Source: Promethearchaeota archaeon (lineage in GTDB: Archaea > Asgardarchaeota > Lokiarchaeia > Sigyniarchaeales > SOKP01). Taken from it: 64,000 nucleotides of DNA. A model generated the notes under the pieces. The model saw nothing but the letters and a program-made list of their open reading frames with translations, was not told the DNA's origin and ran no database searches. The stretch is from contig JAEOTH010000151.1 of assembly GCA_016839915.1 (NCBI GenBank), positions 1 through 64,000 of the forward strand, given 5' to 3'. Positions 6,759 to 53,151 of the stretch are shown piece after piece; positions within the stretch are counted from its first letter, which is position 1, and each line of letters begins with the position of its first letter. A program made the translations under genes and the position numbers.

Positions 6759-8435
6759 TTGCCAACATTAGAGCTTAAACTTGAAAGATTAGAAAAACTA
6801 GTTGGAAAAAAATTAGATATAAAAGAATTGGAATATGATTTACAATGGATTGGCTTAGATTTAGAAGGTATAAACGAAGAAGAACAAAAAATTAAAGTTG
6901 AATATAATCCAAATAGACCTGATTACTCTAGCCCAGAAGGTATTGCCAGAACTCTTAAAGGATATTATGAAATTGAGTTAGGAATTCCTTCCTTTGAAAT
7001 AGTACCTGGAAAAATTGAATTAAATGTTGATCCGAGCGTTAACAAAGTTAGACCGTATATAGTTTGTGGAGTAATTAGAGATATTGATTTGGATGAAGAT
7101 GAGGTTGCCACTTTAATGACCATCCAAGAACACCTACACTGGGCAATAGGACGAGATAGAAAAAAAGTAGCAATAGGTGTTCATGATCTTGATAAAATTA
7201 CACCTCCTTATCGATATACAGCTGTTAAACCAGATTCTGTAAGTTTTATTCCATTACATGGTGATGGTTATCCTATGAATTTAGAAGAAATCTTATTATT
7301 ACATGAGAAGGGGATTGAATATGCCCATATTTTAGAAGGAAAAGAAGTGTATCCTATAATTTTTGATAGTAATGATGAGGTTTTATCCTTTCCTCCGGTT
7401 ATAAATGGAGTAATCACAACAGTTACAGATGATACCAAAAATCTATTTTTAGATTTAACTGGAACAGATTTTAAAGCTGTCAATTTAGCCTTAAATATTT
7501 TATCAACGACTTTAGCAGATATGGGAGCTAAAATTGAAAGTGTTAAAGTAAATTATGAGAAAGAGAAGGAAATTGTTACCCCCAATCTTAATCCTGAGAA
7601 GTTGCAAGTTGGGATTGATTACATTAACGATTATATAGGAATAAGTTTATCATCTAAGGAAATGATAAAATGTTTTAATAAAGTTAGATTAGATGTTAGA
7701 CAATCTGCTAAAAAAGGATATTTAAATGTCTGGGTTCCTGCTTTTAGGGGGGATATAATGCATATCGTCGATTTGACTGAAGAATGTGCTATTGGATACG
7801 GATATGATAAATTACCACGAACTATTAGAGAAGGGTGCATTGGAGAATATCATCCAATTCAAACTTTTTTAAATAAGATTCGAACTATAATGATAGGGGC
7901 AGGATATTTAGAAGTTTTGAACTTTATTTTATCAAACTCTGAGAAGCATTACAATTATATGAGGCATGAATTTGAAGAATCAAACCATGTACAGATTTTA
8001 AATCCAGTTTCAAAAGAATATAATACTACAAGAACAAGTATACTACCAAAATTATTGGAAACTCTTCTAAATAACCGTTCTGAGGAAAAACCGATAAGAC
8101 TTTTTGAAGTAGGTGATATTCTTTTGCTAGATGATAGTGAAGAAACTGGTGCAAAAAGAGAAGTTCATCTTTCTGTTGTGACTTATCATGAAGATGCTGA
8201 TTTTACAGAAATAAGATCTACATTAGATTTCATAATGACGTCGCTTGGACTTTATAGTGATTTTGAGATTAAAACTGGGAAGAATGCTAGTTATATTAAT
8301 GGTCGATATGGGGAAATTTATTGGAAAGGAATAAAAGTTGGAGAGATCGGTGAAATCCACCCTGATGTTTTATTAAATTTCAAATTGGAATTCCCTGTTG
8401 CCGCAATGGAATTGAATCTAGAAAAACTTTTTTAA
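6759..8435 (+). CDS. pheT: Phenylalanyl-tRNA synthetase beta subunit
   Basis: 558 aa archaeal PheT (EYNPNRPDYSSPEGIARTLKGY; ECAIGYGYDKLPRT; GEIGEIHPDVLLNFKLEFPVAAMEL). TTG start directly downstream of pheS. Confidence 0.96.
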   Translation: MPTLELKLERLEKLVGKKLDIKELEYDLQWIGLDLEGINEEEQKIKVEYNPNRPDYSSPEGIARTLKGYYEIELGIPSFEIVPGKIELNVDPSVNKVRPYIVCGVIRDIDLDEDEVATLMTIQEHLHWAIGRDRKKVAIGVHDLDKITPPYRYTAVKPDSVSFIPLHGDGYPMNLEEILLLHEKGIEYAHILEGKEVYPIIFDSNDEVLSFPPVINGVITTVTDDTKNLFLDLTGTDFKAVNLALNILSTTLADMGAKIESVKVNYEKEKEIVTPNLNPEKLQVGIDYINDYIGISLSSKEMIKCFNKVRLDVRQSAKKGYLNVWVPAFRGDIMHIVDLTEECAIGYGYDKLPRTIREGCIGEYHPIQTFLNKIRTIMIGAGYLEVLNFILSNSEKHYNYMRHEFEESNHVQILNPVSKEYNTTRTSILPKLLETLLNNRSEEKPIRLFEVGDILLLDDSEETGAKREVHLSVVTYHEDADFTEIRSTLDFIMTSLGLYSDFEIKTGKNASYINGRYGEIYWKGIKVGEIGEIHPDVLLNFKLEFPVAAMELNLEKLF

Positions 8436-48176: not shown

Positions 48177-51100
48177 CTATTTTCTTTTAAAATTAAATCT
48201 TATAGACTTAAGTGTATTTTTCTTGATTTTAGAATTGCAATGTGGACATTCTAATTCAGATTTTTTCTCTAATCTTGAAATTAAATTATCTTTTAAAGCT
48301 GCGGAGCAATCTCTATTTGGACATATATTTAATTTCCCATAGATTTTCTCTTTATCCTCCTTTAATTCTCCAGAAATGATTTCAAGGTTTTCTACATTTA
48401 TTTTATCTGTAATTGTATTTTTGTTTTCAACAAGAAAATCTTTCAAATATTCAGATTCAGTTCCAATTCTCAATACTATCTTTTCTCCAACTTTATATCC
48501 ATGCCTTTTACGAATAAATTGAATGTTTCTTATTAAATCATTTACTAAACGTTCAGACAATAATTGATCATCAACAGAGTCGTCTAAATAAACATTAAAG
48601 AATTTTGATTCGGCTTTGATCAAATGATCTGATGGTTTTACCGATTTTACTATTTCTAATTCTTTTACATTTCCTACTTTCTTAATAATCTCAGGAAATT
48701 CTATTTTTGGCATATCTTCTTTTGATTCTATAAGAATTTTTTTATTTGGCCATCTTAATCTTATTCTATTCTCATCTTTTAATGCTCTCACAATTTCTAT
48801 TAATTCATGTGTAAAATTCATTTGTTCTTCTAAATCTAAGTCGATATTTTGTTCATCGAATTCCGGCCAATCTTGTAAGTGAATACTTTCTGTTTCTTCA
48901 AAACCAATTGATTTCATGTGAGATTTAAACATTTTAAGATAAATATCTTCACTTATCATTGGATTAATTGGTGCTAGAAGTAAAGAAACCTTAAATAATA
49001 CATAATAGAGAACTCCCATTATAAGAAATTTATTCGGATCTTCAGAATAGATGTCAAGTTTCTCTCGATTGAGCATTATATACCATCTGCTTATATCATT
49101 CACAATAAAATCTCTAAGTTCACCTGTTATCCATGGTAATTGATATTCATCTGATAATTCTGTTATCTTTTTAATTGTAGAATTTAATCTTGAAATTATC
49201 CATTTATCTAATTTACTTACCTTTTTTATGTCAAATTTAACTTCTGAAGGATTAAATTCAGCTAAAGTCAATTTCTCGTTGGTATACACATAAACATTCC
49301 ATATTGTGTTAATAATTTTATATGTATCAGTATATTCCTTAAGATTAAAATTGAAATCTCGGCCAGGTTGAGTAACACCTATACAATAAAATCGAAAAGT
49401 TTCTGCACCTTTGATATTAGATAATGCTTTATTCTTCTGCAATGCTGGGACTGTACCATTTATTAAGTCTTCAGGGTTTATTACTGTACCTTTAGATTTG
49501 CTCATTTTAGCTTTTTCCATTAACACCCATCCATGCATATAGCAAGCGTTGTAATTCTTACGACCTGAAGATACCATAGCACTATTTAATAAACTATTGA
49601 ACCATCCTCTTATTTGATCTTTTCCCTCGATTATAAAGTCAGCTGGTACCCAGCTATCATAATGACTTTTCCCATCATATATTTCTTGAGCGGCCCACAT
49701 TACTGAACCAGAATCTAACCAAACATCTAAAATATCAGGAATTCTTTTCTTTGTTCCTTTATTACAATTTTTACACTTCCATGTAATTTGGTCAATCCAT
49801 GGTCTATGCAAATCATTAGGACATTCACCAGCAATCTCATTCAGCTCCTTTCCTGAACCTATTACCGTAATTTCTTCGCAATCTTCATTATCACAGATCC
49901 AAACACTTAGTGGAATACCCCAAAAACGTTGTCGTGAAATACACCAGTCTTTTAATGTGGTGAGCCAGCTTTTGAACCATCTGTTTCCTGCCCAATCTGG
50001 GATCCAATAAATCTCATCGTTTTTTGTCAGTAAATCAGGAATTAAACTTTCAGTTTTAAAAAACCATTGATTAGTCGCTCGATAAACTAATTTTGAATCA
50101 CATCTCCAACAATGTGCATATTCATGTTCAATTTCATTAGTTAAAACGAGTGTTCCTTTTTTCTTTAATAAGTTTAAAATCTCTTCATTAGCATCAAAAA
50201 CATACATTCCCTCAAATTTACCCGCTTCCTTTTTATAAACACCTCTGATACTTACTGGATTGAAAATTGGTATATTATTCGCTATACCAACTTCAAAATC
50301 TTCTGGGCCGTGTCCGGGTGCTGTATGTACTAATCCAACACCTTCTGATGCGGATACATATTCTTCTGAAAGTATAATTGAATGGACTTTTTCACTTTCT
50401 TTAGCAAGTTCTCGTTGGTAGGGAACCTCATTTAATAATGGATGTATATACTTTTTTCCTTCTAGTTCTTCACCAGTAAAATCTTTAACTATTTTATATT
50501 TATAACCAAGTTCCCCTGAAATTAAATGAGTTATTGAATTTTTAGATAATACCCAGTATTCTTTAAGATCCTCTATATATACCTTAGCATACTCTGCAAT
50601 TGGATTAACCATTATTGCAGAATTCGCTACTAATGTCCAAGGTGTAGTAGTCCAAATTATAAAATATGTGTCATCCATATCTGCAGATTTAATTTTCAAG
50701 AATAAGCTAGTATCCTTAATGTTTTTATATTCATGTTCATGTTTAGCTAAAGCAGTTGCACAACGAGGGCAACAGTTTAAAGGTCGATAAAACTTATAAA
50801 GTAAATTATTCTCCCAAGCTTTCTTTAAAGTCCACCAAATTCCCTCAATATAACTGTTTTTAAATGTAATATAAGGATTTTCCCAATCCCAAAAATAACA
50901 ACCCAATCTTTTAAATTGGTCATTCATTATAGCTAAATTTTTTAAGGCAAACTCTTTACAGTTCTTTATGAATTTATCAATACCATATTCTTGTATTTCT
51001 TGTTTGTTCTTAATTCCTAATTCTTTTTCCATTTGTACTTCTATTGGTAAACCATGAGTATCATATCCTGGGGTATCTGTGACTTTAAAACCTCTCATTC

Positions 51101-51323
51101 GTTTATATTTTATTAAGTAGTCTTTTAAAATCTTATTCCATGCTGTTCCTAGATGAATGGACCCTGTAGTATAGGGAGGACCATCAATAAATCGCCAACA
51201 ATTTCTTCCTGTTTCTTTTTTTCGAATCAGTGAGTATATATCTCGGTCTTTCCAGAATTTTATAATTTTTTCTTCTAAATCTGTTAAATTCAACTTTTTA
51301 TCTAAAACTTCCACGAAAACCAT
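48177..51323 (-). CDS. ileS: Isoleucyl-tRNA synthetase
   Basis: 1048 aa; [46 protein letters not shown] region ([20 protein letters not shown]); [16 protein letters not shown]; C-terminal Zn motif. Confidence 0.98.
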   Translation of the reverse strand: [1048 protein letters not shown]

Positions 51324-51510: not shown

Positions 51511-53151
51511 CTACCTTAGACAGAAACCACATTTACCAAATGATTTTATTGTTTGTTCCCAACAATGATTATGATATGCCCTATTACAATGGGGACATTC
51601 TGCGTGACAGTTATCATCACCAGCAATTTTTTTAGTACAGCTTGGACATTCGATTTTATGGCATATAACACACGAAACTACTGAAACTTCGAAAATTTTC
51701 TTAGAGATAAGATTAAATAAATCGACGAGATAACTAAAAGGTGTCCAATCTTTAAAAAAGTCATCAAATGATGTATGTAAATCATCTTTTATTTTCTCAT
51801 GAGCTTCAAGTTCGAATTCATTTATCACTTTCACATCCGGCATTTTCATAGGATAATCAATTGGTAAAGTAATTTGAAATTCAAAAGTTAGATCTTCAGT
51901 TTTCATTTTTCCTTTCATTTCTACGAGTAATGTAGCAGTTGAGGGGTTGTATTCAATTTTTTTATAATGATCTTTTAATAAATCTATTTCAAAGTTAATT
52001 CTTGAGTTTTTATCAACTAACCAAGAGATTTCCCTTACGATTTCAACAGACTCAGACATATTTTCTTCCCAGTTTTTATAGACTTTTAATTCGGTAACGG
52101 GGACTTGGATAATTTGCTGTAATTCCGGAGATAAATCAATTTTAGGAGGTTTTGGATAAGGCTCTAAATCTATGTTTAAGAAATATTCTTTAAAACCGTA
52201 CGTTAACATATGGACCTTTAGAGCAGTCACACTATCATGTATTTTTTCACATTGATATTCTCCTGATATTTTTTTGGATTGTACTTCAATCTCTTTAAGA
52301 AAAAGCAATTTTTTCTCTAATTCATGTAAGAGATCAACAATATGAGAAGGTTGCTTTGATTTCCACTCCTTTAAAATGTTTAAGATTTTATAGGGCTCTC
52401 CTAAAATTCTTCGTACTTCATTTGGGAAAGTTACAATTGGTTTTTCGGGGTAATTTGTAAAATCTATTTGAATGATAAATGTACTAGTTAAAGTTATCGT
52501 AATATAAATATTGATTTCAGCTTCCTTTGTACCGATTTGGTCATAAGCATATTCTTGTTGGATTAAACTCAACTCTGTATTAATCTCAATGCTAACTGGT
52601 GCACCTTCATCAACGATATCAGATTTAAGAGTGGTTTTAGAATCATCAACAGAATTCTCAGTTATAGAACTTCCGGAATCTTTGGAAGTATAAAACACTT
52701 CATCAGGAGAATCTGATTGTGTAATATATTCCTCATATTCAAAATCTGGGGGGTATGCATCTAAATCAGGTGTTAAAAATTCTTCTTTTTCAGTAGAATT
52801 ATCTTGTCCAATAGGTATTAATTCTTCCTCAGAATTCATTTTTGGCGTCTCTAAAGTTTTTTCTATAATCTCTTTAAGCTCGTATACAATATCAACTACA
52901 TTAGAAGTAGGTGTCCAATTAATTAAGGAATTAAGCTGAAAATCCCCTAATAAGTCTTTAATTACAGAGTGATAAATCAAATTTGGAGGTGTGCTTGGAA
53001 AGTTTTCATCGAATTTAATTTCTAACTCATATTTTTTTTCAGGAGTTTCATAAACATAACCATATAGATGTGCAATCTCTCCTGAAACCATCCAAAATGA
53101 AAATTTTTTTGCGATCTTTTGGGCTTCTTTTAATATTCTTTCTTTATCCAT
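51511..53151 (-). CDS. Protein with four UBC/RWD-like repeats and C-terminal Prok-RING-like C4HC3 zinc domain
   Basis: Repeats at about aa 7-101, 190-284, 288-381, 385-488 share a strand-rich segment, an (F/Y)P..PP-type loop (NFPSTPPN, NYPEKPIV, PYPKPPKI, DYPMKMPD), a W(T/x)(P/x) motif and a terminal helix. C-terminus: CPSC-x13-CPHC-x4-HNHC-W-x9-CGFC. Confidence 0.65.
   Translation of the reverse strand: MDKERILKEAQKIAKKFSFWMVSGEIAHLYGYVYETPEKKYELEIKFDENFPSTPPNLIYHSVIKDLLGDFQLNSLINWTPTSNVVDIVYELKEIIEKTLETPKMNSEEELIPIGQDNSTEKEEFLTPDLDAYPPDFEYEEYITQSDSPDEVFYTSKDSGSSITENSVDDSKTTLKSDIVDEGAPVSIEINTELSLIQQEYAYDQIGTKEAEINIYITITLTSTFIIQIDFTNYPEKPIVTFPNEVRRILGEPYKILNILKEWKSKQPSHIVDLLHELEKKLLFLKEIEVQSKKISGEYQCEKIHDSVTALKVHMLTYGFKEYFLNIDLEPYPKPPKIDLSPELQQIIQVPVTELKVYKNWEENMSESVEIVREISWLVDKNSRINFEIDLLKDHYKKIEYNPSTATLLVEMKGKMKTEDLTFEFQITLPIDYPMKMPDVKVINEFELEAHEKIKDDLHTSFDDFFKDWTPFSYLVDLFNLISKKIFEVSVVSCVICHKIECPSCTKKIAGDDNCHAECPHCNRAYHNHCWEQTIKSFGKCGFCLR

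Follow-up and report, generated by a model that had tools for sequence, protein, structure and literature searches.

FANCL is the E3 of the human Fanconi anaemia core complex, where it monoubiquitylates FANCD2 and FANCI. Listerin (LTN1), the E3 of RQC, consists of a long HEAT-repeat body with a C-terminal UBC_like/RWD domain followed by a RING. To our knowledge, a FANCL-like design would not be expected outside the eukaryotes. The domains of FANCL are arranged as ELF, double RWD (DRWD), and RING; the RING recruits the E2, while the ELF and the DRWD bind ubiquitin and the substrate, respectively (PMC4543658). In archaea, a cascade of E1, E2, and RING E3 has been reconstituted from Caldiarchaeum subterraneum, with a minimal small-RING protein as the E3 (PMC5654768). 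RING E3s are known from archaeal ubiquitin operons (PMC5654768), while tandem RWD domains fused to a RING are undescribed for such clusters in the literature that we searched. That search returned no paper on Asgard together with FANCL or on Lokiarchaeota together with an RWD domain, which is weak evidence of novelty, most subscription papers being outside its scope.

The gene described here lies on the minus strand of a stretch of 64,000 nt, referred to as the window, whose positions serve for all coordinates. An earlier interpretation, the sequence-only reading, had proposed four UBC/RWD-like repeats fused to a zinc domain at 51511 to 53151, and the open reading frame, its coordinates, and all of the motifs quoted for it are present. 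Orthologues with 44-79% identity are found in a number of genera and families, and we therefore regard the gene as real and conserved rather than as a chance reading frame. Its parts and its downstream neighbor are as follows.

51511 to 53151, minus strand: whole gene, whose 546-aa product has four UBC/RWD-like repeats followed by a RING-type zinc domain at the C terminus (intact reading frame; orthologues in genus, family, and order; Pfam UQ_con, E = 1.7e-9)
52840 to 53151, minus strand: repeat 1 (R1), aa 1-104, the most E2-like repeat (UQ_con stretch 38-103; hhalign to Asgard E2s, 3e-10)
52585 to 52839, minus strand: linker, aa 105-189, acidic and of low predicted order (AF2 pLDDT 21-38; length varies among orthologues)
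52717 to 52779, minus strand: short island of conservation within the linker, FLTPDLDAYPPDFEYEEYITQ, a candidate docking motif (kept among the orthologues of alignment A1, with variable flanks)
52294 to 52584, minus strand: repeat 2 (R2), aa 190-286, UBC/RWD-like (hhalign; AF2)
51994 to 52293, minus strand: repeat 3 (R3), aa 287-386, UBC/RWD-like, containing C301 (hhalign; Cys positions)
51682 to 51993, minus strand: repeat 4 (R4), aa 387-490, RWD-like, with the RING immediately after it (RWD, 3.9e-4; listerin UBC_like, 1.6e-4; hhalign to Asgard E2s, 5e-5)
51520 to 51672, minus strand: RING-type zinc domain, C494-C544, twelve ligands (ligand conservation in 37 homologues; PDB profile search)
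48177 to 51323, minus strand: ileS, isoleucyl-tRNA synthetase by sequence (at most loci from the family and the order, a member of this homology cluster adjoins the gene)

The repeats belong to the UBC/RWD superfamily, as seen from significant profile matches. In Pfam-A, UQ_con was matched over two stretches of the window protein at 37.9 bits (cut-off, 27), with the RWD and listerin UBC_like matches below cut-off, while an NCBIfam search of the same protein gave nothing meaningful. Within the 15-sequence orthologue alignment, every sequence matched UQ_con (best, 6e-11) and 14 matched RWD (best, 2e-8), and in relatives the RWD model passes its cut-off (33.8 versus 22.8). Profile-profile comparison with hhalign related R2 to R3 (8e-19), R1 to R2 (8e-16), R1 to R3 (3e-12), R1 to R4 (2e-6), and R2 to R4 (2e-4); the comparison of R3 with R4 was not significant. 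An AF2 model built on 15 sequences shows four units in which beta strands lie between two helices, in the order typical of UBC, with a pLDDT of ~70-92 across the repeats. The four repeats of the sequence-only reading were thus confirmed, but it had overlooked that R1 is set apart from R2-R4 by a stretch of ~85-110 residues with a pLDDT below 50. In the hhalign comparison with Asgard E2 enzymes, Q72 of R1 falls at the position of the E2 catalytic Cys. This column holds Q, E, N, H, T, K, R, or a gap and is Cys in none of 37 homologues, which bears out the claim that the E2 catalytic Cys is missing. The only Cys upstream of the zinc domain is C301 in R3, as had also been noted, and it is not conserved. 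Because of the UBC/RWD profile matches and the Q72 column that is never Cys, we consider the repeats to be inactive relatives of UBC. An active E2 enzyme was ruled out, with Q72 in place of the catalytic Cys after the HPN/PP loop and Cys never found there in homologues.

A Foldseek search of the AF2 model against the PDB gave as its top hit the FANCL chain of the Fanconi core complex (9a0j_L, E = 7.6e-6). A BRCA1-A chain that we take to be BRE was second (6gvw_C, 1.7e-5; the BRISC chain 6h3c_C matched at 4e-4), and a further FANCL chain was third (7kzp_L, 9.6e-5). The central domain of FANCL (3zqs) matched at 5e-3, and the other matches included CENP-O, RQC chains that are presumably listerin, and many E2s. 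These results agree with the UBC/RWD fold that had been proposed for the repeats. The TM-score (target) was ~0.5 against E2s and 0.2-0.3 overall on the FANCL chains; the latter values are low, as would be expected when the relative placement of the modules is poorly predicted, and the resemblance to FANCL therefore holds module by module.

Several families of the order contain homologues that span the chain entirely or for the most part. In class-level relatives the protein is shorter, about 370-430 aa, and consists of the core R2-R3-R4-RING without R1. Order- and class-level relatives also have a second paralogue (L053-L060), most copies of which combine three UBC-like repeats with a zinc domain that has the same twelve ligands, and several of which carry a long N-terminal helical stretch. 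Elsewhere, R2-like sequence occurs in other fusions. Two proteins of ~221 aa (L148, G128:C102; L150, G134:C48) combine an R2-like N terminus with a C-terminal Prok-JAB/JAMM domain (7e-7 in L148) and are possible RWD-deubiquitinase fusions. Two others of 532-575 aa (L153, G104:C323; L154, G082:C118) join R2-like, RWD-type segments to ABC-ATPase-like domains, and a separate ABC ATPase gene adjoins that of L154.

The zinc domain contains twelve Cys/His ligands (C494, C497, C502, C505, C515, C519, C522, H527, H529, C530, C541, and C544) in the layout C-x2-C-x4-C-x2-C ... H-x-H-C ... C-x2-C. Eleven of these are invariant in 37 homologues, and H529 is present in 36; the eight cross-brace ligands of a RING finger are present in order. 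When a RING-only profile was compared with the PDB, the RINGs of RCHY1 and RBX1 scored best (6e-4 each), followed by Arkadia-type RINGs, RBX2 (5e-3), and APC11 (0.17), with zinc ribbons and PHD fingers lower. The domain had previously been described as Prok-RING-like; this label gave way to the RBX1/RCHY1 type, since Prok-RING_1 matched the whole window protein weakly and below cut-off (0.039). A plain zinc ribbon, the alternative raised at that time, was also rejected, as the zinc-ribbon models were weak and ranked under the RING models. The domain therefore appears to fit RING better than either Prok-RING or a zinc ribbon. Its assignment to the RING fold rests on sequence because the AF2 pLDDT of the domain was low (below 50 in the full chain and ~60 in an R4-RING fragment) and because Foldseek matched only the UBC part of that fragment, with no match to a RING.

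In RBX1, an extra Cys pair, a lone Cys, and the HxHC motif bind a third zinc. By analogy with RBX1 and from the profile alignment, rather than by structure, the RING-type domain of the window protein probably binds three zincs; an alternative register may apply, as in RCHY1, with C502 and C505 as the first ligand pair. The residues expected to contact the E2 are only partly kept, which weakens the case for ligase activity. The Ile of the C-x-I-C motif (I496) is present in 35 of the 37 homologues. The position of the E2-contact Trp, four residues past the sixth RING ligand, is occupied by T534, and each of the 37 homologues has either Thr or Asn there; the proline of C-P-x-C is replaced by Gly or Ala (G542 in the window protein). 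The Trp position is Met in RCHY1, which ranked at the top of the PDB profile search, and the missing Trp is therefore not decisive against a ligase. In the small-RING E3 of the Caldiarchaeum system, an I30Q mutant was inactive and a W58A mutant was impaired (PMC5654768). The same zinc domain is also found on two unrelated proteins (L061, G103:C32; L062, G104:C498), one of which has a long, repetitive, extracellular-looking region, and we consider the module mobile between architectures on account of these attachments.

Linkage to other ubiquitin-system genes was seen only in class-level relatives and in another Asgard family. In one relative (G084, L076) the family gene is followed on a single strand by genes for E1 (ThiF, 3e-57), E2 (UQ_con, 5e-26, retaining its catalytic Cys), and a JAMM protease (JAB, 4e-14), all by Pfam, with no ubiquitin gene seen in this cluster. 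In two more (G083, L077; G085, L078) the family gene is followed by E1. The nearest PDB match of the cluster E1 is eukaryotic UBA1 (4e-43). The other Asgard family has a protein with two RWD domains and a RING (RWD, 2e-8; zf-RING_2, 1.5e-7; FANCL_C, 7.5e-6) within a ubiquitin-E2-E1 cluster, with a JAMM gene nearby, and this RING is conventional, with Ile and Trp both kept. Close copies of this protein among 231 genomes of the phylum were confined to that family and to one contig in the bin of another order. The contig (L084, G163:C173) carries the ubiquitin cluster of the other family in a Lokiarchaeia-order bin, with the RWD-RING protein at 57% identity, and either bin contamination or transfer would account for its placement. 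Proteins of ~400 aa with a vWA domain and two RING-like zinc domains occur in several Lokiarchaeial genomes (L155, G000:C75; L076:13247-14368; L063), in G084 close to the ubiquitin gene cluster, and are possibly a further E3 family.

In loci of the window's lineage, the gene lies apart from E1 and E2 and adjoins ileS instead. The neighborhood in the window consists of ileS and sugar or glycan genes, with no link to ubiquitin, and ileS is a frequent neighbor for which a functional link is not evident. A genome search for ubiquitin, E1, and E2, suggested at the outset, found ubiquitin-like, E1, E2, and JAMM protease genes in the window's own genome (G000), on contig C208. Two ubiquitin-like proteins there (L098:9248-9580 and 6956-7381; G000:C208) end in Ala-Gly (IPASTAG and IPASIAG) and not in Gly-Gly.

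The cluster-type E2 gene of many Lokiarchaeial genomes contains short inserts with in-frame stops or frameshifts (G000:C53:829-1362 [L146, L099]; L134, L135, L136, L137, L138, L139, L140, L141, and L142). The inserts fall at about four sites, KFPE^NYPF, APP^YAY, GMMH^VEPP, and AGE^QYF. Those at GMMH^VEPP (G000, G118, G151, and G159) differ in sequence, yet they fold with the exon flanks paired (z of -2.2 to -4.0), and of five inserts tested at one site, four fold into an inner hairpin within a helix that the exon flanks close. These modeled folds are suggestive of bulge-helix-bulge (BHB) mini-introns or translational bypass elements.

We predict, with reasonable though not high confidence, that the window protein functions in Lokiarchaeia as a single-chain ubiquitin E3 of the RING type, by a mechanism like that of FANCL. 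The family is probably a ubiquitin ligase because its close relatives cluster with other ubiquitin enzymes. The C-terminal RING would recruit a ubiquitin-charged E2, and the catalytically dead tandem UBC/RWD modules would serve as the substrate-binding arm, possibly also binding ubiquitin or E2 noncovalently; ubiquitin would pass from E2 straight to the substrate, with no thioester intermediate on the E3. R2-R3-R4-RING represents the core, encoded beside E1 in class-level relatives and in one case also beside E2 and JAMM. In the window's order, where the gene is away from the cluster, R1 on its flexible linker would probably be an extra docking module, perhaps gained there. The proposal of the sequence-only reading that inactive UBC/RWD modules and a RING-type zinc domain make up an E3 or scaffold is well supported, the ligase role being a prediction. 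If this prediction is true, dedicated multidomain E3s existed in the lineage nearest to the eukaryotes, and a testable set of E1, E2, JAMM, and E3 from a single organism could address when E3 specificity evolved and what the original role of tandem RWD modules was.

The main rival is a noncatalytic scaffold that holds E2, ubiquitin, substrate, or JAMM without stimulating transfer, in the manner of BRE/BRCC45 in BRCA1-A and BRISC. We regard this as unlikely but worth serious consideration, given the second-ranked BRCA1-A match and the BRISC match in Foldseek, a weak BRE Pfam match in relatives (2.7e-3), a RING without the E2-contact Trp and Pro, and the JAMM gene in the G084 cluster. However, we know of no RING in BRE, the 37 homologues keep the twelve zinc ligands as well as the Ile of C-x-I-C, and the two-RWD protein of the other Asgard family keeps a conventional RING, all of which speak against such a scaffold. 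It is quite improbable that the zinc domain is instead a treble clef or cross-brace of another kind (Rubicon-homology, PHD, or C1-like) acting in membrane traffic or another nonubiquitin role, with the RWD modules as protein-binding arms. RH_dom did match one class-level relative (4.6e-5), PHDvar_NSD and C1_1 were weak matches of RING-only sequences, and other Asgard proteins join RWD-type repeats to ABC-ATPase-like domains; yet RING families dominated the PDB profile search, no Rubicon chain was among the sequences that it listed, and E1, E2, and JAMM are linked to the gene in relatives. Finally, R1 could act as a UEV-like cofactor that pairs with an active E2 and steers chain linkage, as Mms2 pairs with Ubc13, with the RING secondary; despite the similarity of R1 to Asgard E2s and its matches to E2 structures in the PDB, this is very improbable, since the class-level relatives that are linked to E1 lack R1, which is thus unlikely to be the core function.

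A FANCL-like ligase in Lokiarchaeia would also bear on the origin of the eukaryotic enzymes. It is possible, though we lean against it, that true homology connects this family with the eukaryotic RWD-RING ligases (FANCL and listerin), that the combination of tandem RWD and RING arose in Asgard ubiquitin clusters before the eukaryotes, and that FANCL-type ligases descend from the archaeal ubiquitin system.

Like the Caldiarchaeum subterraneum operon (PMC5654768), the clusters described here link genes for E1, E2, a JAMM/Rpn11 protein, and a RING protein, but the Lokiarchaeial RING protein carries three or four UBC/RWD modules. The zinc domain resembles the three-zinc RING-H2 domains of RBX1, RBX2, and APC11 in its profile match and in its C-x2-C-x4-C-x2-C...H-x-H-C layout with twelve ligands, although it departs from them in the E2-contact Trp and in its final pair of ligands, and the window RING is fused to its own substrate arm, whereas those RINGs are bound to a cullin. 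The architecture had seemed unrecognizable, but its last two domains have a counterpart in listerin, where a UBC_like/RWD domain likewise directly precedes the RING. The listerin UBC_like model gave hits in 16 genomes, all under cut-off, and in 15 of these the hit was R4 of the window family. Membership in the listerin family was ruled out, with this match weak and the 546-aa chain of four tandem modules lacking the HEAT-repeat body.

The counterpart of the whole is FANCL, with its ELF, double RWD, and RING. By profile, orthology with FANCL is unsupported: FANCL_d2 matched 1 of 15 orthologues (5e-4) and none over cut-off in 231 genomes, and FANCL_C was matched below cut-off in the two-RWD relatives only. 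Because these Pfam models fail their cut-offs, the family is filed as FANCL-like and not as FANCL. The window protein further differs in its four modules and long flexible linker and in a RING that probably binds three zincs. Both proteins nevertheless place tandem UBC-like modules without a catalytic Cys ahead of a C-terminal RING, and FANCL is the top structural match in the PDB. The E1-linked version, at about 370-430 aa, compares with FANCL chains of 370-373 aa, and its R2-R3-R4-RING core has the same order of three tandem UBC-like modules and then a RING, the RING being assigned by sequence.
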